Position numbers and translations under genes: made by a program
Shown here: piece by piece, positions 2,811-24,651 of the stretch
Layout of the letters: each line of letters begins with the position of its first letter
How positions within the stretch are numbered: the first letter of the stretch is position 1
Source of the DNA: Salana multivorans
GTDB lineage: Bacteria > Actinomycetota > Actinomycetes > Actinomycetales > Beutenbergiaceae
DNA: 64,000 bases
Reading direction: 5' to 3'
Assembly: GCF_003751805.1 (NCBI RefSeq)
Contig: NZ_RKHQ01000001.1
Span: forward strand, 1,550,001 to 1,614,000
The notes under the pieces: generated by a model
What the model was told of the DNA's origin: nothing
Database searches by the model: none
The model's input: only the letters and a program-made list of their open reading frames with translations

Positions 2811-3803
2811 GTGAGCGCACTGCGAGTCCTCTTCCTCGGCGGCACCGGCACGATCTCCTCGGCGGTCTCCCCGCTCGCGGTGGCCAGCGGCATCGACCTG
2901 ACCCTCGTCACCCGCGGCCAGTCATCGCGGCACGCGATCCCCGAGGGCGCCCACCACCTCCAGGCCGACGTGCGCGACCCCCGCGCGCTGCGCGAGGCGC
3001 TCGGCGGGCGGGAGTGGGACGTCGTCGTCGACTGGCTCGCCTTCCACCCCGACAACGTCCGCGACGACCTCGAGACGTTCGACGGCCGCACGGGCCAGCT
3101 CGTCGTCATCAGCTCGGCGTCCGCGTACGAGACGCCGCCGCGGCGGGTGCCCGTGACGGAGTCGACGCCGCTGCGCAACCCGTTCTGGGAGTACTCGCGG
3201 AACAAGATCGCCGTCGAGGACGTGCTCGTCCAGGCCTACCGCGAGCGCGGCTTCCCGATGACGATCGTGCGCCCCTCCCACACCTACGACCGCACGAAGC
3301 CGCCGTTCAGCGAGGGCTGGACGCTCGTCGAGCGGCTGCGCCGCGGCGCCGAGGTCGTCGTCCACGGGGACGGGACGTCGCTGTGGACGCTCACGCACCA
3401 CGAGGACTTCGCGCGCGGGTTCGTCCCGCTGCTGGGCAGCTCGCGGGCGATCGGCGAGGCCGTCCACATCACGTCCGACGACGTGCTGTCCTGGAACCAG
3501 ATCGTCGGCGTCCTCGCCGATGCCGCCGGTGCGCCGGAGCCCCGGATCGTCCACGTGCCGTCGGACGCGATCCACGCCGTCGACGAGCGCTGGGGCGAGA
3601 GCCTGCTCGGCGACAAGGCGCACTCGATGATCTTCGACAACGCCAAGCTCCGCTCGCTCGTGCCCGGCTACCGCGCCACCATCCCGTTCGAGCTGGGTGC
3701 CCGCGAGATGCTCGCCTGGTACGACGCGGACCCTGCGCGTCGCGTCGTCGACCCGGTCTGGGAGGCGCGCCTCGACTCGCTCGTCGAGCGGTTCCGGGTC
3801 TAG
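2811..3803 (+). CDS. NAD-dependent epimerase/dehydratase (extended SDR)
   Basis: 330 residues, Rossmann fold. The N-terminal LFLGGTGTISS is the glycine-rich NAD(P)-binding loop (about 7-17). YSRNKIAVED (about 129-138) holds the Tyr-x-x-x-Lys catalytic pair of extended short-chain dehydrogenases, and HHEDFARGFVPLL resembles sugar-nucleotide epimerases and bacterial RNA-binding-like SDRs. It probably oxidises or epimerises a sugar or sugar nucleotide in the cytosol; the substrate is unknown. The GTG start is chosen because translation upstream is not conserved in type and a -10 box lies 7 bases before it. Glycerate kinase follows after 13 bases, so the two are likely co-transcribed. Confidence 0.85.
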   Translation: MSALRVLFLGGTGTISSAVSPLAVASGIDLTLVTRGQSSRHAIPEGAHHLQADVRDPRALREALGGREWDVVVDWLAFHPDNVRDDLETFDGRTGQLVVISSASAYETPPRRVPVTESTPLRNPFWEYSRNKIAVEDVLVQAYRERGFPMTIVRPSHTYDRTKPPFSEGWTLVERLRRGAEVVVHGDGTSLWTLTHHEDFARGFVPLLGSSRAIGEAVHITSDDVLSWNQIVGVLADAAGAPEPRIVHVPSDAIHAVDERWGESLLGDKAHSMIFDNAKLRSLVPGYRATIPFELGAREMLAWYDADPARRVVDPVWEARLDSLVERFRV

Positions 3804-13882: not shown

Positions 13883-14413
13883 GTGACCATCGACGGAATC
13901 GCCGCGCTCATCCAGGACGTCCCCGACTTCCCCAAGCCGGGGGTGACGTTCAAGGACATCACGCCCGTCCTCGCGCGTCCGGACGCGTTCCAGGCGGTCG
14001 TCGACGCGATGGTGGCCTCGGCCCCGGAGGGGATCGACGTCGTCTGCGGGATGGAGGCGCGCGGATTCATCTTCGGCGCCCCCGTCGCGCTGGCGCTGGG
14101 CGCCTCGTTCGTCCCGGTCCGCAAGTCGGGCAAGCTGCCCCGGGACACCGTCGAGAGCACGTACGACCTCGAGTACGGAACGCAGACCCTCGCCGTCCAC
14201 ACCGACGCGATCCGCGCTGGCGACCGGGTGCTCATCGTCGACGACGTCCTGGCCACGGGCGGCACGGTCGCCGCGACGGCTGACCTCGTCCACCGGCTCG
14301 GCGGCTCGCTCGTCGCCGTGACCGTGCTCATGGAGCTCGCGTTCCTCGCCCCGCGCGAGCGGCTGGAGTGGCGCGACGTCGACCTCATCACGTCGCTCAT
14401 CACCTACGACTGA
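13883..14413 (+). CDS. apt: Adenine phosphoribosyltransferase
   Basis: 176 residues, the usual APT length. Converts adenine and PRPP to AMP in purine salvage. Diagnostic features are FPKPGVTFKDITPVL near the N-terminus, GMEARGFIFG, FVPVRKSGKLP (flexible loop) and the PRPP loop VLIVDDVLATGGT (about 118-130). The GTG start is preceded by CAGACT 6 bases away, which favours it over an upstream in-frame ATG at 13835 that would lengthen the protein by 16 non-conserved residues. An 11-base tandem duplication covers its stop codon (14408-14429). Confidence 0.97.
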   Translation: MTIDGIAALIQDVPDFPKPGVTFKDITPVLARPDAFQAVVDAMVASAPEGIDVVCGMEARGFIFGAPVALALGASFVPVRKSGKLPRDTVESTYDLEYGTQTLAVHTDAIRAGDRVLIVDDVLATGGTVAATADLVHRLGGSLVAVTVLMELAFLAPRERLEWRDVDLITSLITYD

Positions 14414-14851: not shown

Positions 14852-14946
14852 GAGCGCAGCGTCCTTGGGGGAGGACGGCGACGGGGGACTCTGACCGGCC
14901 TGTCGACGGCCTTGGCGCGGCATCACGTCGTTGCTGAGGGAGAATC

Positions 14947-17900
14947 ATGAGACACGCCACATCGGCCCCATCCCTGCGTTCGCGCATCGGAGCGCGTCCC
15001 CATCGATGGGTCTCGATACTGACGACGGCGGCACTCATCCTCGGCGCCGCGCCCGTCGTGACGGCCCTGAGCCTGCTGGGTGCGCCCGCGCCCGCCGAGG
15101 CCGCGACCATCACGGTCTCGGCCCCGCAGGCGCGGATGGACACCCACTACGGGTGGACGGGGGCGACCGGGTCGTCGAACGCCGCGAACGGTGACCGGTA
15201 CCGCTTCGGCTCGGCTCCGACCAGCACGACCACCGGCTTCATCAGCAACACCGGCGGCTTCGCCGGGAACGGGAGCAACGGCGGCTTCGGCGGGACCTCG
15301 CCCTACTACGCCGACGGCAACACCGCGTGGGTGTCCAACGGCACGACCGCGTGGACGGCGCACGGCTACGACAACAACCCCTCCGCCTCCGAGACCCGCC
15401 TCCACCTGAGCGACCAGAGCGCCATCGGCTTCGAGCCGGCGAGCCTCACGCAGGTCGAGACCGGCCAGATCTTCAACCTCGGCCGGATGGTCCACAGCAA
15501 CAACCCGGTGACCGTCACGAACGACTGGTTCCAGGGCGACCTCGACATCCGGTTCATGGGTGCCGACATGTCCTACCGGTGGCGGATGAACGAGACGCCC
15601 AACAACTGCTCCGGCGCGAACTGCTCCGACGACCTCACGGACTTCCTCAACCAGGTGAGCAACCAGACCGTGACCAGCGGCGGTCTCACCTACACCCTGG
15701 TCGTCCGCGGGTTCACGGCGCCCAACTCGGGCAGCACCGGGTGTCAGGCCAACCCGACCACGGTCAACCCGATCAACCAGTTCCGCACCGTCGAGGGCAC
15801 CCGGACCTACGGGTGCCTCTACGCGTCCCTCGAGCAGGTCCGCCAGGTCACGGTCAAGAAGGTCGTCGCCTCGCCCTACGGCACCGCGCCCAACCAGAGC
15901 TTCGCCTTCACCAGCACCTCGACCCTCGCCGGTTCGCCCTGGTCGGCCCCCGGCACCGCGAGCCTGACGAGCAACGGCACGTTCACCCGCGCCTACAACT
16001 CCGGCGAGCAGATCACCATCTCCGAGGGCGCGCAGAGCGCTCCGTGGTCGTTCACGAGCCTGAGCTGCGTCGACGGCACGGGCGCCGCGATCGGCACGGT
16101 CAGCGGCCAGACGGTCACGATCCCGAGGGGATCGACGGCGAGCAGCGCCGCCGCGGCCCCGATCACCTGCACCTACACGAACACGTACACGCCCCGGGCG
16201 ACGCTGACCCTGGTGAAGAACGTGACCGCGACCGGCCAGCCCACCCCGCAGGCCGTCCCGGCCGACTGGACGCTGCGGGCGCAGGGTCAGGGCACCATCT
16301 CCAGCCAGTCCATCTCCGGCCCGGGCAACTCGGCCGCCGTGACGAGCCAGAGCGTCATCGCCGGCACCTACGTGCTCAGCGAGACGCCGAACAACCCCGC
16401 CAACACCGGCGGCTACGTCCAGGACGGTGACTGGATCTGCACCGCCGGCACCGTCAGCACGACGGGCGGCGTCACGAGCGTGACGCTCAGCCACGGCCAG
16501 AGCGCCACCTGCACCGTCAAGAACAAGTACCAGACCGGCTCGCTCAGCCTGACCAAGACGGTCACGGGCGGCGGGTACACCGGCGGCACGACGAAGGGCT
16601 TCGACGTCCAGTACAGCTGCGTCGCCGACGGCCGGACGGTCAGCGGCACGCGCACCCTGTTCCCGGCCGGCGCCAACGGCACCGCCGGCTCCGCGGTGGT
16701 CGTCACGAACCTCCCGGCCGGCGCCACCTGCACGGTCACCGAGACGCCGCCGACCGGCGGGCTCGTCAACTCCTCGTGGGTCTGGGCGACGGCCGCCTTC
16801 AACCCCAACCCGGCCGTCGTCGTGATTCCGGCGGGCGGCACGGCCTCGGTCAACGTCACCAACCCGACGTCGCAGAACCTGGGCTCCTTCACGGTGAACA
16901 AGGTCGTCTCGCCGCGGGCCGACGTCCCGGCGGCCGGCTACACCGGCGGCAACACCCGCCAGTTCCCCTACAGCTACGTCTGCACGATCGGCGGCGTCGA
17001 GACCAAGTCCGGCAGCGGCACGTTCTCGATCGGCACGCCGATCACCGTCACCGGCGTCCCGGCCACCTCGGTCTGCGTCGTGACGGAGGGCGCGCTGTCG
17101 ACGGCGGGCGGCGACTTCGCCGACGGCTCCTACGCCTGGGACGGCAGCTCGGGCGCGGTCACCCTCGACCCGATCCCGGTCAACGGCTCCCGGACCGGCA
17201 CGATCACGAACTACGTCAAGCGGGTCTACCAGAACCTGACGCTCACGAAGACGGTCCAGGGCGGCGGCTACATCGGCACGGGTGAGCCGTTCTCGGTCGT
17301 CGTCACCTGCGGCCAGGGCGCGAGCGAGGTCACCCGCACGGTCAGCCTCGCCTCCGGCGGCTCGAAGACCGTCCAGGTCCCGGCCGGCGTCGCCTGCACG
17401 GTGGTCGAGCAGACCCCGGCCGACACCCTGCTCGAGGACGCGTACTCCTGGCAGGCTCCGACGTACACCGGCCTCACGTCCGGCGTCGTGACCGTCCCCG
17501 TCGGGCAGTCCCGCACGGTCGGCGTCACCAACACGTCGTTCATCGACAAGGGCCGGATCTCCGTCACCAAGGACATCGCGCACTACGCCGGGGCGGTCGC
17601 GAACGGCACGACGTTCGCCGTCCAGGTCGCCTGCGGCACCTCGCCGGCGATCCCCGTGACCCTCACCTGGACCGGTGGCGCCTCGGACACCTGGACCTCG
17701 GACCTGCTCCCCGTCGGCACGCAGTGCACCGTGACGGAGAGCAACCCGAGCGGTGGGCTGGTCGACGCGAGCTACGCGTGGACGCCCGCCCCCGCCGCCC
17801 AGCAGGTCGCAGTCCCGCAGAGCACCCAGCCGACGCTCGTCACCGTGACGAACGACATCACCCGCGTCCGGGCCCCGTTCACCATCCAGAAGGTCGTGAA

Positions 17901-20900
17901 CAAGCCCGCCGGCGCTCCCACCACCGGTGGCTTCTCCGGCACGTACTCCTGCGTGTACGGCGAGGACGGCCCGGTGACCGGCACGTGGACCGCGCCCGCC
18001 GGCGGCGGCGCCGCGACCCTCTCGCCGGCCGCCAACGTCCTGCTCGGCTCGGTCTGCACCGCGGTCGAGACGACGCCGACCAACCCGACCGACCCGGCCT
18101 ACACCTGGACGGTGCAGCAGCCGGGCAGCACGCCCGTCACGACGACGGCCGGCGGCACCGCGACGGTGACGAACACGCTCAACCACGGCACGGGATCGTT
18201 CTCGGTCGCCAAGAGCGTGACCGGCGGCGCGGCCGGCACGGCGTTCGCCGACGACAGCTTCGGCTTCTCCTACGTCTGCACCCCGCAGACCGGTGAGCCG
18301 ATCTCGGGCAGCCTCGCCTTCAAGGCCGGCCAGTCCCAGTCGGTCGCCGACATCCCGAACGGCAGCACCTGCGTCGTCAAGGAGACCTCGACGCCCGACC
18401 CGATCGACCCCTACCGCTGGGACGGCGTGACGTTCGCCGGCGCCGGGGGCAGCGCCTCCGACGGCGGGTGGAGCTTCACGACGCCAACCGACGGCGCCAG
18501 CGTCACGGTCACCGCGACCAACGCGATCTCCAAGCGCTTCGGCAGCGTCGCGGTCGCCAAGCAGGTCACGGGCGAGACGGCCGGCTTCACCGGCGGCTCG
18601 ACGGCCATGTTCCCGGTGGTGCTCGTCTGCGACGGCGTCACCTACGGCCCCGAGACCATCGCCAACGGCGGCTCGACCACCTTCTCCGGCATCCCGCTCG
18701 GCGCGAGCTGCGCGGCGAGCGAGCTCGCCTTCTCGGGTGGCCTGGCGAACGGCTCGTTCGCCTGGGAGCTGGCCGTGATCGGTGACGACGTCACCGTGAC
18801 GACGGAGAACGGGTCCTCCGGGACCATCGCGGTGAAGAACCCGATCCGGCGCGTCTACGCCCCGGTCCAGCTCACCAAGGACCTCCAGGTCGGCGACCTC
18901 GTCGACGTCGTCGACCCGACGACGCAGTTCGACGGCGAGTGGACCTGCGTCTACACGGGCGCCGGCGGCACCACGAGCGTCACCGGCACCTGGGCCGGCA
19001 CCGACGCGACGGTGAACGACGGCGGGTCCGCCCAGACCCTCACCCGCGGCGGCACGTCCGCCACGACGACCGACGTCCTCGTCGGCTCCGTCTGCACGCC
19101 GACCGAGTCGACGCTCGGCGCTCCCTCCACCGACCCTTCCTACGCCTGGGACGACGCGACCCTGACGCCCGCCACCGTGACGGGCGACGGGATCGCGACG
19201 ATGACGGTGGTCAACACGCTGCGTCGCGACACGGGCGACGTCGTCGTCAAGAAGGTGCTCACGGGCGAGGTCGCGGGCGTCACGTCCGGCACGACGTTCC
19301 CCGTCAACGCGATCTGCCGGTTCGGCGACCTCGCGGAGACCTTCACCGGGAGCCAGAACCTGACCGCCGGCGGTGACTTCGTCACCCTGATCTCCGGGGT
19401 TCCCGGCGGCTGGACGTGCGAGATCACCGAGGGTGCCGCGACCAACCCCGACGGACCGGCCCTGCGGGACGCGTCCTTCGCCTGGGGCGACACCACGATC
19501 GAGCCCTCCTCGGTCACGGTCGCGGTCGGTCGGAGCCAGCAGGTCGTGGTGACCAACGACGTCGAGCGGGTGCTCGGCCGGTTCGGCATCGCCAAGACGC
19601 TGCGCGAGGGGACGCCGGAGCCCTCCGACGCCACCTTCTCCGGTGCGTACCTGTGCACCTACGACGCCGACACGACGTTCACGGGCACCTGGTCCGTCGA
19701 CGGGACGGGCGCCGCGACCCTCACGCCGGTCACGCCGGCGGGCGTGACGTCGTTCCCGCTCGGCACGACGTGCACCGTCACGTCCGAGGACGAGCTGGGC
19801 ACGAACGAGTTCCTGCCCGACACGTCGTGGGCGTGGGACGCGCCGGACCTCGGCGAGGAGGTGACGGTCGCCGCCGGCGTCACGCCGACGATCACCGTGA
19901 CCAACGCCGCGCACCGCGTGTTCACCGACCTGTCGGTCACGAAGGTCTACGCGGGCGACGCAGCGGCCCTCGCCGACGACGCCACCGTCACCGGGGCCTG
20001 GGCCTGCTACTACCCGGCCGACTCCGACACGCGGGTGGCGGGCGGCACGTGGTCGCTGCCGGCCTCCGGCGGGACCGTGACGCTGGCGACGGCCGACCCG
20101 GCCGACGACGGCGACGACGTCCCCGCCGAGTCCCGGTGCACCGTCACCGAGGACACCCTGTCCGACGACCTGCTCGTCAACTCCTCGTGGGCGTGGGCCA
20201 CCCCGGCCTACGAGCCGGCCGCGACCGGCGGCGCGAGCGGCGAGGTCACGACGGCGGTCGACGAGACGGCCGACGTGACGGTGACGAACGACACCAGCCG
20301 TGTGCTCGGCGCGTTCACCATCGTCAAGCAGGTCCAGCGCGACACGCGCTCGCAGACCGTCACGCTCGACGCCGGCCTCGGCTACTCCGGGACCTGGACC
20401 TGCGAGCTCGGCGACGAGAGCTGGAACGGCACCTGGGGGCCGATCCCCGACGGCGGTTCCGTCGTGGCCAGCGACATCCCGCTGGGCGCCACGTGCACCG
20501 TCGCCGAGGGCGAGCGCATCGCCCCGGTGGCCAGCGACGTGTCGGTCCAGTGGCTCCCGTGGTCCGCGAACGAGGTCGTCGTCGAGTCCGTCGACCAGCG
20601 GCCCGTCTCGAGGGTCACCAACCCGCTCGTGCGGCTCGCGGGTGCGTTCACGGTCTCCAAGACCGTGAGCCAGCCGGACGGCGGCTACGTCGCCGACAGC
20701 ACGTTCGACTTCGAGTGGCGGTGCACGGCCGACAACGGGGACCTCTACCCCGCGGACGGCCCGGGCTCCTTCACGCTCGCGGACGGCGGGACGTTCAGCG
20801 CTCCGGACGGCATCCCCGTCTCGAGCGAGTGCACCGTGACCGAGGTGGGTCTGCCCGACCCGTCGCACACGTCCTACACGTGGAGCACCTCGGCGCAGCT

Positions 20901-23900
20901 CACCGAGAACGGTGTCGTGGCCGACCCGACGGACGGCGCGAGCACGACCTTCGAGCTCGGTGACGTCGCGACCGACGTCACGCTCGCCGCGTTCACCAAC
21001 ACGCTGACGCAGCACACCGGGACGTTCACGGTGAGCAAGTCCATCGTCTCCGCCGGCGACGAGGTCCTGCCCGACGTCGACGGCCTCTCCTTCGACGTCA
21101 CCGCGTCGTGGACCGACCTCGCCGGGGACGCGCAGTCCGAGATCCTCACGATCCCGGGCGACGGCACGCCGGTCTCCGGCCCGACCCTCCCGATCGACAC
21201 GGAGGTGACGCTCGCGGAGACCTCGGTCGACACGGCGCCTGCCGGGTGGCGGTGGACCGGGACGCCGACGTTCACGATCGGCGGCGAGACCGCTGACACG
21301 TTCGTGGTCGCCGAGGAGACGGCGGCCGAGGCCGTCGTCACCAACACCCTCGAGCGGGAGAAGGGCACGTTCACGGTCGGCAAGGTCGTGAGCAACCCCG
21401 ACGGCGTCGGCAACCTGCCGGGCAGCTACAGCCTCTGGTACAGCATCGACGGCGCCGAGCCGGTCGAGGTGCCGCTGGCGGCCGGGGCGACCTCCGCCGC
21501 GATCACCGTCCCGACGCTGGTCGACGTGACCGTCTGGGAGACCGCGCCCGGCGCGGTGCCCGGCGGCTCGTGGGGCACGCCGACCTGGACGCTCGACGGG
21601 GTGTCGACCACCCCGGCGGAGGACGGCAGCGTCACCTTCCAGGTGCCGGCCGACACCGGCGTCGCCGCGGTCGTGACCAACCCGATCCGGTCCGTCCCGG
21701 TCGACGTCGACAAGACCTACGTCTCCTCCTCGCTCGACGCCGACGGCGTCTGGACGGTCGTCTACGACGTCGACGTGACGAACGGCCACGAGAGCGACAC
21801 GGCCCTCTACTCCCTGGTCGACACGCTCGAGTTCGGTGACGGCATCACGGTCACCGGCGCGTCGTGGACGGGCCCGGGCGACGAGGACGGCGGTGCGTTC
21901 GCCGACGGCGCGACCAGCGCGACGCTGGCGACCGACCGGCAGCTCGCCGCGGGTGGCCTCGACTCCTACGTCGTCACCGTGACGGCGACGATCGACCCGG
22001 CCGCCTGGACGTCGCAGGACAGCCAGCTCGAGTGCACCCGGACCGAGGAGGGTCGCGTCGGCGGGTTCCTCAACCGGGCGACGGTGAGCTGGCCCGGCGG
22101 CTCGGACGACGGCGAGGACTGCGGGACGCCGACGCTGCCGACGATCGAGAAGGAGTTCGTCTCCGCGACCCAGTCGACGACGGACGCGACGAGGTGGACC
22201 GTCGCCTACACGGTGACGGTGACCGGCGGCGACCAGGACACGGTGTACGACCTGGCCGACGTCCCGGGCTTCCCGGCCGGCGTCACGCTGGGCACCGGAA
22301 CCGCGCAGCTCCTGCCCGACGGTCCCGTCGTCACCATCGCGGGTGACGGGACGATCGCGACGGACGTGGCGCTCGCGGCCGGCGAGGTCCACACCTACCG
22401 GGTGCTCTGGCCGGTGACGATCGTGCGCGACCCGGCGCCCGGCCTCGCCGAGTGCGGCGAGGTGCCGACGCAGGGCCACGGCTTCTTCAACGAGGCGGCC
22501 ATCACGGTCGGCGGCGTCGTGATCGACGACACCGACTGCGGCCCGATCGACGAGCTGGTCGTCCCGAGCGTCACCAAGACGGCGACGAGCACGACCGAGG
22601 GCGAGGACGGGGTCTGGACGGTGACGTACGACGTCACGGTCACGCTCCCGACCGACGAGGAGACTAACCCCAAGGGTCTCGCGGCGGCCTACGACCTCGT
22701 CGACACGCTCGACTTCGGCGACGGCATCGACATCGAGTCGGCGGAGTGGACCGGCCCGGGCGACGCGGCGGGTGAGTTCGAGGGCGGCAGCGCCACCCTC
22801 GCGACCGGTGTGACGATCACGCCGGGCGACACCCCGCACGTCTACCAGGTGACGGTGCGCGCCACCGTCCCGGCGTCGGTGTTCGACGCGGGTCTCGACC
22901 GGTGCGTCGGCGGCGAGGGCGAGGGCGGCTCCGGCTTCCTCAACACGGTCCAGCTGTCCTCGGGCGGCGTCGACGTGGAGAAGGAGGCGTGCTCGGAGCC
23001 GAAGGCCCCGACCATCCAGAAGACCGGCCAGCAGGCCGTCGAGCACGAGGACGGGTCCTGGACGATCTCCTACCTGGTGACGGTCTCGCACGAGGGTGAG
23101 CCCGGCGGCGAGGGCGAGGCGGGCGACCCCGACGTCGTGTTCACGCTGAAGGACAGCCCGGTGACCCTGCCGACCGGCGTCACGCTCGTCCCCGGCACCT
23201 GGCACGCGGCGGCCGAGTCCGACGACGCGCCCGCCGTGGTGGACGCCGACCGACCGGCCTCGGGTGACTGGACGATCGCGACCGGGTCGCTGAAGCCGGG
23301 GCAGAGCTACACCTACCGGGTGAGCGCCGACGTCACGGTCGCACCCGTCGCCACGGGCAGCGACCCGTACGAGCTCGGCGAGTGCCCGGACGTCGAGGGC
23401 GGCGGCGGGATCGTCCTGCGCAACGTGGGGATCGTCGGGTCGGGCGCCTACGAGGCGGACGACGACGGCTGCACGACCGTGCTCCCGCCGCAGGCGTGGG
23501 CCCTGGCCAAGACCTCGGACCCGGCCTCCGGCTCCACGGTCCTGCCGGGCGCCACCGTGACGTACACGCTCACGGCGACCAACACGGGTCAGCGACCCGT
23601 CGTGGGCGCCGTGGCGCTGGACGACCTCACGGGCGTGCTCGACCACGCCGAGCTGACCCAGCCGCTCCCGGCCGGTCTCACGCTCGACGGCTCGACGCTC
23701 ACGTGGACCGTTCCGGACCTGCCCATCGGGGAGTCGGCCGCGGTCAGCTACACGGTGACGGTGGCGAAGGACGCGATCGGTGTCACGCTGGTCAACGTCG
23801 CGACCCCGGGGACGGGCGGCGAGTGCATCGAGAGCTGCACGACCGACCACCCGACGCCGCGGTGGACGATCAGCAAGACGTCCGACCCCGTCTCGGGCAG

Positions 23901-24348
23901 CACCGTGACGAAGGGCCGCACGATCACCTACACGCTGACGGCGACGAACGTCTCCGACGCCGTGGTCTCCGGGGCGAAGGGCGTCGACGACCTCTCCGGC
24001 GTCCTGCCCCACGCCACCCTCGGCACCCTGCCGAGCGGGGTGACGGTGTCCGGCTCGACGCTCACCTGGTCGATCCCGGACCTGGCGCCGGGTGAGTCCG
24101 CGACGGTCAGCTACAAGGTGACGGTCGGCTCGGTGACGAAGACGACGACGCTCAAGAACGTCGTCGCCCCGGTCGGTCCCGGTGGCGAGTGCTCCGGCAC
24201 CTGCACCACCACGCACACGATCAACCCGCCGCCCACGCCGTTCATCCCGGCGCTCGGCTCCAGCGGGATGCTCGGGCTGCTCGGGCTGGCCCTGCTCCTG
24301 CTCGCGGCAGGCGCGACCATGGTGCTCCGCCCGAGGCGGCAGCACTGA
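14947..24348 (+). CDS. Giant secreted DUF5979-repeat surface protein
   Basis: 3133 residues. Residues 1-52 are a signal peptide (twin-arginine absent, cut likely after PAEA). A unique domain spans about 53-300. Two CnaB-like units (to 529) precede 15 DUF5979-type units of about 115 residues (530-2248). Four further beta modules with the VVYDVDVT or VTYDVTVT pattern (2249-2850) and two DUF11-like modules starting WALAKTSDP and WTISKTSDP (2851 on) follow. The end is a hydrophobic helix with an RPRRQH tail. Each DUF5979 unit keeps an early Lys, a Glu in a CTVTE-like turn and a final Asn, as in isopeptide-forming folds, and 13 of 15 also keep two Cys. No LPXTG is seen. ATG 14947 follows GAGGGAG. 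Likely a long cell-wall or membrane-anchored fibre for adhesion; the role is inferred. Confidence 0.9.
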   Translation: MRHATSAPSLRSRIGARPHRWVSILTTAALILGAAPVVTALSLLGAPAPAEAATITVSAPQARMDTHYGWTGATGSSNAANGDRYRFGSAPTSTTTGFISNTGGFAGNGSNGGFGGTSPYYADGNTAWVSNGTTAWTAHGYDNNPSASETRLHLSDQSAIGFEPASLTQVETGQIFNLGRMVHSNNPVTVTNDWFQGDLDIRFMGADMSYRWRMNETPNNCSGANCSDDLTDFLNQVSNQTVTSGGLTYTLVVRGFTAPNSGSTGCQANPTTVNPINQFRTVEGTRTYGCLYASLEQVRQVTVKKVVASPYGTAPNQSFAFTSTSTLAGSPWSAPGTASLTSNGTFTRAYNSGEQITISEGAQSAPWSFTSLSCVDGTGAAIGTVSGQTVTIPRGSTASSAAAAPITCTYTNTYTPRATLTLVKNVTATGQPTPQAVPADWTLRAQGQGTISSQSISGPGNSAAVTSQSVIAGTYVLSETPNNPANTGGYVQDGDWICTAGTVSTTGGVTSVTLSHGQSATCTVKNKYQTGSLSLTKTVTGGGYTGGTTKGFDVQYSCVADGRTVSGTRTLFPAGANGTAGSAVVVTNLPAGATCTVTETPPTGGLVNSSWVWATAAFNPNPAVVVIPAGGTASVNVTNPTSQNLGSFTVNKVVSPRADVPAAGYTGGNTRQFPYSYVCTIGGVETKSGSGTFSIGTPITVTGVPATSVCVVTEGALSTAGGDFADGSYAWDGSSGAVTLDPIPVNGSRTGTITNYVKRVYQNLTLTKTVQGGGYIGTGEPFSVVVTCGQGASEVTRTVSLASGGSKTVQVPAGVACTVVEQTPADTLLEDAYSWQAPTYTGLTSGVVTVPVGQSRTVGVTNTSFIDKGRISVTKDIAHYAGAVANGTTFAVQVACGTSPAIPVTLTWTGGASDTWTSDLLPVGTQCTVTESNPSGGLVDASYAWTPAPAAQQVAVPQSTQPTLVTVTNDITRVRAPFTIQKVVNKPAGAPTTGGFSGTYSCVYGEDGPVTGTWTAPAGGGAATLSPAANVLLGSVCTAVETTPTNPTDPAYTWTVQQPGSTPVTTTAGGTATVTNTLNHGTGSFSVAKSVTGGAAGTAFADDSFGFSYVCTPQTGEPISGSLAFKAGQSQSVADIPNGSTCVVKETSTPDPIDPYRWDGVTFAGAGGSASDGGWSFTTPTDGASVTVTATNAISKRFGSVAVAKQVTGETAGFTGGSTAMFPVVLVCDGVTYGPETIANGGSTTFSGIPLGASCAASELAFSGGLANGSFAWELAVIGDDVTVTTENGSSGTIAVKNPIRRVYAPVQLTKDLQVGDLVDVVDPTTQFDGEWTCVYTGAGGTTSVTGTWAGTDATVNDGGSAQTLTRGGTSATTTDVLVGSVCTPTESTLGAPSTDPSYAWDDATLTPATVTGDGIATMTVVNTLRRDTGDVVVKKVLTGEVAGVTSGTTFPVNAICRFGDLAETFTGSQNLTAGGDFVTLISGVPGGWTCEITEGAATNPDGPALRDASFAWGDTTIEPSSVTVAVGRSQQVVVTNDVERVLGRFGIAKTLREGTPEPSDATFSGAYLCTYDADTTFTGTWSVDGTGAATLTPVTPAGVTSFPLGTTCTVTSEDELGTNEFLPDTSWAWDAPDLGEEVTVAAGVTPTITVTNAAHRVFTDLSVTKVYAGDAAALADDATVTGAWACYYPADSDTRVAGGTWSLPASGGTVTLATADPADDGDDVPAESRCTVTEDTLSDDLLVNSSWAWATPAYEPAATGGASGEVTTAVDETADVTVTNDTSRVLGAFTIVKQVQRDTRSQTVTLDAGLGYSGTWTCELGDESWNGTWGPIPDGGSVVASDIPLGATCTVAEGERIAPVASDVSVQWLPWSANEVVVESVDQRPVSRVTNPLVRLAGAFTVSKTVSQPDGGYVADSTFDFEWRCTADNGDLYPADGPGSFTLADGGTFSAPDGIPVSSECTVTEVGLPDPSHTSYTWSTSAQLTENGVVADPTDGASTTFELGDVATDVTLAAFTNTLTQHTGTFTVSKSIVSAGDEVLPDVDGLSFDVTASWTDLAGDAQSEILTIPGDGTPVSGPTLPIDTEVTLAETSVDTAPAGWRWTGTPTFTIGGETADTFVVAEETAAEAVVTNTLEREKGTFTVGKVVSNPDGVGNLPGSYSLWYSIDGAEPVEVPLAAGATSAAITVPTLVDVTVWETAPGAVPGGSWGTPTWTLDGVSTTPAEDGSVTFQVPADTGVAAVVTNPIRSVPVDVDKTYVSSSLDADGVWTVVYDVDVTNGHESDTALYSLVDTLEFGDGITVTGASWTGPGDEDGGAFADGATSATLATDRQLAAGGLDSYVVTVTATIDPAAWTSQDSQLECTRTEEGRVGGFLNRATVSWPGGSDDGEDCGTPTLPTIEKEFVSATQSTTDATRWTVAYTVTVTGGDQDTVYDLADVPGFPAGVTLGTGTAQLLPDGPVVTIAGDGTIATDVALAAGEVHTYRVLWPVTIVRDPAPGLAECGEVPTQGHGFFNEAAITVGGVVIDDTDCGPIDELVVPSVTKTATSTTEGEDGVWTVTYDVTVTLPTDEETNPKGLAAAYDLVDTLDFGDGIDIESAEWTGPGDAAGEFEGGSATLATGVTITPGDTPHVYQVTVRATVPASVFDAGLDRCVGGEGEGGSGFLNTVQLSSGGVDVEKEACSEPKAPTIQKTGQQAVEHEDGSWTISYLVTVSHEGEPGGEGEAGDPDVVFTLKDSPVTLPTGVTLVPGTWHAAAESDDAPAVVDADRPASGDWTIATGSLKPGQSYTYRVSADVTVAPVATGSDPYELGECPDVEGGGGIVLRNVGIVGSGAYEADDDGCTTVLPPQAWALAKTSDPASGSTVLPGATVTYTLTATNTGQRPVVGAVALDDLTGVLDHAELTQPLPAGLTLDGSTLTWTVPDLPIGESAAVSYTVTVAKDAIGVTLVNVATPGTGGECIESCTTDHPTPRWTISKTSDPVSGSTVTKGRTITYTLTATNVSDAVVSGAKGVDDLSGVLPHATLGTLPSGVTVSGSTLTWSIPDLAPGESATVSYKVTVGSVTKTTTLKNVVAPVGPGGECSGTCTTTHTINPPPTPFIPALGSSGMLGLLGLALLLLAAGATMVLRPRRQH

Positions 24349-24369
24349 GGTCGTGACGGCCACGAGGTC

Positions 24370-24398
24370 CGGACCGGGCGGCTGAGCCGCCCGGTCCG
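24370..24398 (+). terminator. Hairpin 1 of cluster, after giant gene
   Basis: A 13-base perfect stem (24370-24382 with 24386-24398) and a 3-base loop TGA, 22 bases after the stop of the giant gene. The most likely main terminator. Confidence 0.75.
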
Positions 24399-24427
24399 CC
24401 GGGCCCGTCGGCCGAGCTGGTGGGGCA

Positions 24428-24651
24428 GCGCTCGGGGGAGCGCGCGCCACGGGTCGTAGTCCCCCCTGACGACCCATCCTCGACCGGCCCCCCACGCCGG
24501 TCGAGGAAGCTCGGCCGGCGGCCCCGTCTCACGAGGCGGGGTTCTCTGGGGTTCGCGGCCCGTTCGGGCCGGGACCCCGGCGCACCGCCCCGTCGCGGTC
24601 AGGCGACGGGGCGGTGGGCTGGGCGGCGGTGGGGTTGCCGCCGCCCAGCCC
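24428..24651. repeat. Tandem hairpin cluster (hairpins 2-7)
   Basis: Six further inverted repeats: 24428-24443 (6-base arms), 24451-24475 (7), 24478-24506 (11, perfect), 24522-24541 (8, one wobble pair, followed by TTCTCT), 24584-24615 (13, perfect) and 24616-24651 (14, perfect, 8-base loop). They fill the gap between convergent genes and share no common sequence. The last two serve the opposite-strand DUF2993 gene best. No gene lies here. Confidence 0.7.

Follow-up and report, generated by a model that had tools for sequence, protein, structure and literature searches.

Predicted isopeptide and disulfide bonds in the tandem DUF5979 domains of a giant Salana multivorans surface protein

The closest solved counterpart of the domains described here is 47I, a domain of a 7,651-residue adhesin of Mobiluncus mulieris (structures 5u5o and 5u6f), in which mass spectrometry (MS) and X-ray analysis identified an isopeptide bond, Lys6842–Asn6955, and a disulfide bond, printed as Cys6887–Cys6895, that joins strands 2 and 5 (Young et al. 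2023, PMC10619420). We analysed a 64,000-nucleotide stretch of the Salana multivorans genome (contig NZ_RKHQ01000001.1, positions 1,550,001–1,614,000; hereafter referred to as the window), in which an open reading frame (ORF) at positions 14947–24348 of the forward strand encodes a predicted surface protein of 3,133 residues with 15 tandem units of the family DUF5979 (PF19407). The solved 47I fragment itself scores 57.3 bits for DUF5979, and the double lock of isopeptide and disulfide is already known in kind from this domain. Our preferred reading, to which we give a probability of roughly 0.87, is that the 15 units form a CnaB-type stalk with a Lys–Asn isopeptide bond in the units and a disulfide bond in units 1–13.

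Actinobacterial CnaB domains with both kinds of bond are also known from the shaft pilins FimP and FimA of Actinomyces and SpaA and SpaD of Corynebacterium, and in FimA the second cysteine directly precedes the catalytic glutamate. These are short, sortase-polymerised pilins with a disulfide in one or two domains, whereas the window protein is a single chain of tandem units. Our literature search for DUF5979 or PF19407 found only Costa et al. 2025 (PMC12617251), which counts DUF5979 among the CnaB-like families of isopeptide domains, gives Lys, Glu and Asn in its reference structure 4bug, and puts at 41.3% the share of Actinomycetota isopeptide domains that have a disulfide. The passages of that paper on disulfide-rich families name SpaA_2, SpaA_3, SpaA_4 and DUF7933, and DUF5979 is not so named in them. 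The family-wide case for the DUF5979 disulfide given here is fuller than any that this search found in print.

Fold and bonding residues of the units

The protein as a whole matched DUF5979 in Pfam with an E value of 6.8e-144. A DUF5979 search of the host genome gave 15 matches in the giant ORF, 14 of them above the PF19407 cut-off of 25 bits; unit 15, with 21.6–21.7 bits, fell below it. The units cover residues 531–2249 (positions 16537–21693), in accord with the 16534–21693 of the initial annotation of this DNA, 16534 being codon 530. That annotation had ascribed an early lysine, a glutamate and a closing asparagine to all of the units, and two cysteines to each of units 1–13 but none to units 14 and 15. 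The lysine stood at its aligned place and the closing asparagine was present in 15 of the 15 units, and the exact cysteine counts agreed. The glutamate occupied its aligned place in 14 units; the claim needs amending for unit 10 (CTVTSE), where it comes one residue later. The two cysteines of units 1–13 are 27–49 residues apart, the second lying four residues before the glutamate (five in unit 10), in units that are only 22–40% identical to unit 6. A tryptophan between the glutamate and the closing asparagine is likewise invariant in the 15 window units (16537–21693); it is absent from the columns more than 60% conserved in the wider DUF5979 family.

An AlphaFold2 model of unit 6, computed with the 15 window units, had a predicted local distance difference test score (pLDDT) of 90.3 and a predicted template modelling score (pTM) of 0.82. 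It predicts a CnaB beta-sandwich for this unit, in which strands 2–8, 22–30, 59–66 and 103–109 would carry or adjoin K7, C29, C60 with E64, and N110, respectively. With this model, Foldseek returned 5u5o (E 1.4e-5) and 5u6f (E 4.8e-5) as the top solved matches. VIA-align gave a Z score of 13.1 for both, with root-mean-square deviations of 2.5 and 2.3 over 104 residues; pilus proteins came next with Z scores of at most 10.8, and 4bug, the CnaB-like, Lys/Glu/Asn-bearing domain of the pilus-presented adhesin Cpa of Streptococcus pyogenes, scored 9.8. At the sequence level, the whole protein found no match among solved structures up to E 1. A profile of the 15 units was required to reach one; it placed the 5u5o chain first (E 5.7e-4) and aligned K7 with Lys6842. 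The structural alignment, running from model residues 1–110 on chain residues 169–288, puts N110 at the bonding Asn6955.

To locate the cysteines of 47I we compared the two numberings of its chain. Chain residues Lys175, Cys228, Glu232 and Asp245 are Lys6842, Cys6895, Glu6899 and Asp6912 under one offset. Under the same offset residue 6887 is a glutamate, and the sole other cysteine of the fragment is 6867; the printed Cys6887 (PMC10619420) is probably a misprint for Cys6867, as judged from the sequence of the chain. Cys6867 falls in the column of the first cysteine of the window units. Thus, since the structural and sequence alignments place K7, both cysteines and N110 there, the window residues coincide with the bonding residues of 47I: in units 1–13, but not in units 14 and 15, cysteine occupies the two columns that form the disulfide of 47I, and the second cysteine precedes the glutamate by four residues, as in 47I (by five in unit 10), and a Lys–Asn bond between the first and last strands is predicted. 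The adhesin that contains 47I resembles the window protein also in being a giant single chain with dozens of Ig-like domains. It differs in containing ester-bond domains, by prediction also a thioester domain, and an LPxTG motif, where the window protein has SpaA_4, SpaA_2, CnaA-like and DUF7927 domains, an N-terminal choice-of-anchor K match and no LPxTG.

Cysteine pairing in the family and the roles of the two bonds

To evaluate the pairing of the two cysteines quantitatively, we pulled DUF5979 domains from the ORFs of relatives by means of a profile started from the window units. At the thresholds used, matches occurred in 17 of 39 genomes of relatives, in 7 of 296 from the phylum and in 67 of 297 from the order, the own genome counting among the matches in each set. 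The sample surveyed was not random, the stretches around strong matches having been picked by hand (82 regions plus L019 and L020; L numbers are our locus handles). After 7 short and 15 duplicate hits had been dropped from 560, it comprised 538 distinct domains in 87 ORFs.

Both cysteines were present in 468 of the 538 domains (in one, of L130, after an alignment shift had been corrected) and neither in 70, and no domain had one of the two alone. With the cysteines masked in the profile, 463 of 537 domains had both, 3 had two cysteines in shifted positions and 71 had neither; the corresponding numbers in a rerun of the masked profile at a loose threshold were 465, 3 and 75 of 543. The phi coefficient between the two cysteine columns was 0.992, the next best of 62 conserved column pairs reaching 0.30. 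With window units only 22–40% identical to unit 6, a phi of 0.992 against 0.30 means that the co-occurrence exceeds chance. Every unit had the pair in 61 of the 87 ORFs. Fisher's exact test on the first 209 domains gave p = 1.8e-38, a value that overstates the evidence because changes of cysteine state were few and a single one is possible. The main weight is carried by the absence of half-paired domains from the survey across so much divergence. Together with the solved DUF5979 domain that contains both bonds, the all-or-none cysteines of the 538 domains support the earlier proposal of a CnaB-type isopeptide combined with a disulfide inside the domain.

The cysteines might instead be metal-binding or redox-reactive thiols in units whose isopeptides form, and indeed the homologous disulfide had formed only in part in the crystal, where the authors call it a staple of high energy that is potentially reactive (PMC10619420). 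We regard this as very improbable. Two cysteines alone, 27–49 residues apart, make a poor metal site, and neither histidine nor a third cysteine appears among the columns conserved above 60%. In the homolog, MS did find the disulfide (PMC10619420). The protein is also probably exported, and the genome encodes VKOR. VKOR and four Thioredoxin_4 matches would provide means of forming disulfides in exported proteins. Oxidative folding matters in actinobacteria (PMC9974433). Two paired domains of the survey hold a third cysteine. In L096 and L098 a DUF5979 domain has a third cysteine near its last strand (VCAPVDV).

The residues of the triad were better conserved than the cysteines. Of 531 surveyed domains, 526 had lysine in the expected column; glutamate was so placed in 530 of 538 and asparagine in 432 of 436, with aspartate in 3 of 436. 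Extension of the asparagine count by a loose pattern added 95 further domains, which is a hint only, and 7 domains gave no asparagine in this way. All 70 domains without the cysteine pair retain lysine and glutamate. Four domains with the pair have lost lysine and glutamate jointly, having asparagine and glutamine in L048, L078 and L095, and alanine and serine in L076; the two locks thus appear, from these sequences, to be lost separately in the family. The five other departures from the triad are matters of alignment or spacing. The glutamate comes one residue later in window unit 10, its ortholog, L080 and L130, as well as in a fifth domain aligned with a gap, and L131, seemingly without lysine, has one just before the aligned stretch. 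Lys–Asp bonds form in CnaB2. The three domains ending in aspartate could form such a bond.

Some or many units might nevertheless fail to complete the isopeptide, the triad being an ancestral relic. The N-domain of FimP has all of the residues and yet was unbonded in the crystal, one isopeptide bond of SpaD is slow to form, and the glutamate of unit 10 is shifted. We consider a relic unlikely, given that lysine, glutamate and asparagine are better conserved than the cysteines, that the 4 domains without glutamate at either place also lack the lysine, and that none of the pairless domains has lost lysine or glutamate.

As to the preferred reading, that of a doubly cross-linked stalk, we infer the formation of both bonds by analogy with the solved homolog, and that of the disulfide in units 1–13 also from the all-or-none pairing. 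A series of 23 consecutive Ig-like domains would project an N-terminal domain of the choice-of-anchor K type outwards. In each DUF5979 unit, the first-strand lysine and the last-strand asparagine would react unaided, helped by the glutamate, to give the isopeptide, and in units 1–13 strands 2 and 5, the latter also bearing the glutamate, would be linked by a disulfide. An isopeptide between the first and last strands makes Spy0128 inextensible to 800 pN (PMC8382745). The topology suggests that a pulling force would pass from the first strand through the isopeptide to the last strand and leave the disulfide unloaded: because both cysteines lie between the lysine and the asparagine in the sequence, the disulfide would be off the load path if the isopeptide forms. 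Of the initial annotation's notion that each domain is 'locked twice', the two bonds per domain are supported, but a disulfide within the stretch shielded by the isopeptide would not be a second load-bearing lock. It may rather stabilise the fold, both ahead of isopeptide formation and afterwards, help to place the glutamate and protect against proteases and local opening. In relatives without the lysine and glutamate, the disulfide would be the sole remaining covalent lock.

One could go further and view the locks of DUF5979 as separate modules, in which the isopeptide bears the load, the disulfide aids closure of the fold and is gained or lost as a whole, and domains without lysine and glutamate are stretchable fuses limited by the disulfide; we hold this extension to be speculative and rather improbable. 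The family offers a natural test set that separates the roles of the bonds, with domains that have the triad but no cysteine pair (70), those that have the pair without lysine and glutamate (4), and those with both. Formation of an isopeptide removes 17 Da, and the mass change for a disulfide is 2 Da. The survey, of ORFs chosen for strong matches, suggests that the doubly cross-linked stalk domain known from a single vaginal bacterium is widespread in a large family of actinobacterial relatives.

Several observations weigh against the preferred reading. The fold model was built from 15 sequences and for unit 6 only, and the 47I disulfide had only partial occupancy in the crystals (PMC10619420). 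In unit 10 the glutamate is displaced, as it also is at the matching unit of the Miniimonas arenae ortholog described below. Three of the 70 pairless domains carry cysteine elsewhere, one in L050 and two close together in each of L020 and L081; the other 67 have no cysteine at all. Changes of cysteine state numbered about 4 on a tree of 209 domains and about 5 on one of 538, and only 1 was forced by well supported branches. These trees, built without the cysteine columns from 97 and 98 columns, were poorly resolved: 86 of 206 inner branches were open in the first and 208 of 535 in the second. The presence of Thioredoxin_4 is hardly informative, because this common family also occurs in 9 of 14 control genomes. 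Finally, a non-canonical sorting motif leaves wall anchoring only a candidate.

Units 14 and 15 and the Miniimonas arenae ortholog

A scan of genome contigs with the single protein found no relative, and a two-row alignment, used as the query of a second scan, turned up one, in Miniimonas arenae (L134, on the same contig as L035). Whole-protein BLAST against this ortholog listed only the C-terminal domains, and the units were compared one by one. The ortholog shares the N-terminal domain, SpaA_4, SpaA_2 and, in order, 13 DUF5979 units, exactly that number and all with cysteines. Each of window units 1–13 was closest to its ordered counterpart, with 46–71% identity compared with 23–46% to the others, and units 14 and 15 reached at most 39% and 38% identity, respectively, to any ortholog unit. 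The ortholog differs in having neither units 14–15 nor the CnaA-like block; inspection shows its unit 13 to be followed directly by seven domains of the DUF7927 type, and it has an LPGTG signal.

We then examined the nearest relatives of the two units. Among the 14 best matches in other ORFs, pairless domains numbered 12 for unit 15 and 8 for unit 14, as against 0 for units 13 and 4; the pairless share outside the window is 68 of 523 domains. The single best match of unit 14 carries the cysteine pair, and the position of units 14 and 15 on the trees is not firm. These comparisons suggest that the block of units 14–15 was probably added in the window lineage from pairless stock, or lost in the other lineage. 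The initial annotation had taken the joint loss of both cysteines in these units as a sign of a disulfide in each unit; that argument is weak because they are a single adjacent block absent from the ortholog, with nearest relatives enriched in pairless domains.

Loss of both cysteines in place by mutation is possible, though we think it doubtful. Units 14 and 15 do end a row of 13 cysteine-bearing units and keep lysine, glutamate and asparagine, 10 of the 87 ORFs mix paired and pairless units, and both the best match of unit 14 and the loose tree placement would be compatible with it. It is opposed by the ortholog, whose 13 cysteine-bearing units match units 1–13 in order with none standing out as a match to units 14–15, and by the pairless domains among the best matches of these two units. 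A paralog in the own genome (L050; 1,025 residues) has six DUF5979 domains, all without the cysteine pair.

Architecture, anchoring and genomic context

The coordinates of the features are collected in Table 1. From the N-terminus, a probable signal peptide, the choice-of-anchor K match, SpaA_4, SpaA_2 and the DUF5979 units are followed by four CnaA-like domains, two DUF7927 domains and a hydrophobic tail ending in RPRRQH. This architecture suggests a secreted fibrillar adhesin, a surface protein of great length made of a single chain. Each CnaA-like domain has an early lysine, a later aspartate and asparagine, and one cysteine pair. All 46 cysteines of the protein can be assigned to pairs inside single domains, 23 in total, with 2 in the N-terminal domain and 1 in every Ig-like domain other than units 14 and 15; judging from this arrangement, all 23 may bond within their own domains.

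Table 1. Features of the giant surface protein gene (window positions)
Feature	Position	Strand	Basis
Giant surface protein ORF, 3,133 residues	14947..24348	+	ORF call; codon-position G+C 0.61/0.58/0.97
Probable signal peptide, residues 1–52 (basic start, hydrophobic stretch, ...AEAA)	14947..15102	+	Sequence inspection
N-terminal domain, residues 53–299, 4 Cys; choice-of-anchor K match, residues 118–264	15103..15843	+	E 1.5e-15
SpaA_4 prealbumin-like domain, residues 300–417; Cys 374 and 408	15844..16197	+	Pfam E 3.6e-12
SpaA_2 prealbumin-like domain, residues 418–530; Cys 498 and 522	16198..16536	+	Pfam E 5.8e-18
DUF5979 unit 1, two Cys	16537..16881	+	Pfam, own-genome search, residue count
DUF5979 unit 2, two Cys	16882..17229	+	Pfam, own-genome search, residue count
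DUF5979 unit 3, two Cys	17230..17550	+	Pfam, own-genome search, residue count
DUF5979 unit 4, two Cys	17551..17871	+	Pfam, own-genome search, residue count
DUF5979 unit 5, two Cys	17872..18192	+	Pfam, own-genome search, residue count
DUF5979 unit 6, two Cys; modelled unit (K7, C29, C60, E64, N110)	18193..18540	+	Residue count, alignment, model
DUF5979 unit 7, two Cys	18541..18858	+	Pfam, own-genome search, residue count
DUF5979 unit 8, two Cys	18859..19233	+	Pfam, own-genome search, residue count
DUF5979 unit 9, two Cys	19234..19575	+	Pfam, own-genome search, residue count
DUF5979 unit 10, two Cys; Glu one residue later (CTVTSE)	19576..19923	+	Residue count, family alignment
DUF5979 unit 11, two Cys	19924..20307	+	Pfam, own-genome search, residue count
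DUF5979 unit 12, two Cys	20308..20640	+	Pfam, own-genome search, residue count
DUF5979 unit 13, two Cys	20641..21018	+	Pfam, own-genome search, residue count
DUF5979 unit 14, no Cys; K, E, N kept; without counterpart in ortholog	21019..21363	+	Residue count, ortholog comparison
DUF5979 unit 15, no Cys; K, E, N kept; below Pfam cut-off; without counterpart in ortholog	21364..21693	+	Residue count, profile score, ortholog comparison
Four CnaA-like domains, residues 2250–2394, 2395–2537, 2538–2686, 2687–2848	21694..23490	+	Third: NCBIfam RrgB_K2N_iso_D2 E 5e-07; others by inspection
Two DUF7927 domains, residues 2849–2970, 2971–3093; CxxxC pair in each	23491..24225	+	Pfam E 1.8e-32, two stretches
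C-terminal tail: IPALG (ortholog LPGTG), hydrophobic stretch, RPRRQH, stop	24226..24348	+	Sequence, ortholog comparison

The unit region of 1,719 residues contains 27 lysines, 15 of which are those of the triad. This low content is no special feature, because lysine makes up still less (0.9%) of the remaining predicted ORFs of the window, some of which are doubtful. A DNA-level search for tandem repeats between positions 14000 and 24000 detected no array within units 1–15; the units therefore look old and diverged rather than recently copied.

Sortase cuts after the threonine of its motif. At the place of the ortholog's LPGTG, the tail of the window protein has IPALG, with leucine instead of the motif threonine, and a search with NCBIfam LPXTG_anchor gave no match up to E 1. 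The spacing to the first arginine is similar, 24 residues after LPGTG in the ortholog and 23 after IPALG. An overlapping LGSSG in the tail resembles the LGSTG of the paralog L053. At the other end of the protein, where a thioester adhesin would have its thioester domain, the match is to choice_anch_K; residues 53–299 had no match in Pfam, and their structure model, from two sequences, was weak (pLDDT 44.6).

The window has a guanine-plus-cytosine (G+C) content of 74.6%, in a host genome of 3.89 Mb in two contigs. A minus-strand open frame of 3,190 codons (14923–24495) lies opposite the entire giant gene; we considered it as a gene and take it as most likely a by-product of the 97% third-position G+C. 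The annotated neighbours are an adenine phosphoribosyltransferase and a CopD/CtaG-like membrane protein upstream, and an LmeA-like lipid-binding protein and an SNF2 helicase downstream; no tie to surface assembly was seen among them. Elsewhere, the genome encodes one class E and one class C sortase, and a major pilin of the SpaH/EbpB type (L086; G000:C1 around 2022300) adjoins a class C sortase.

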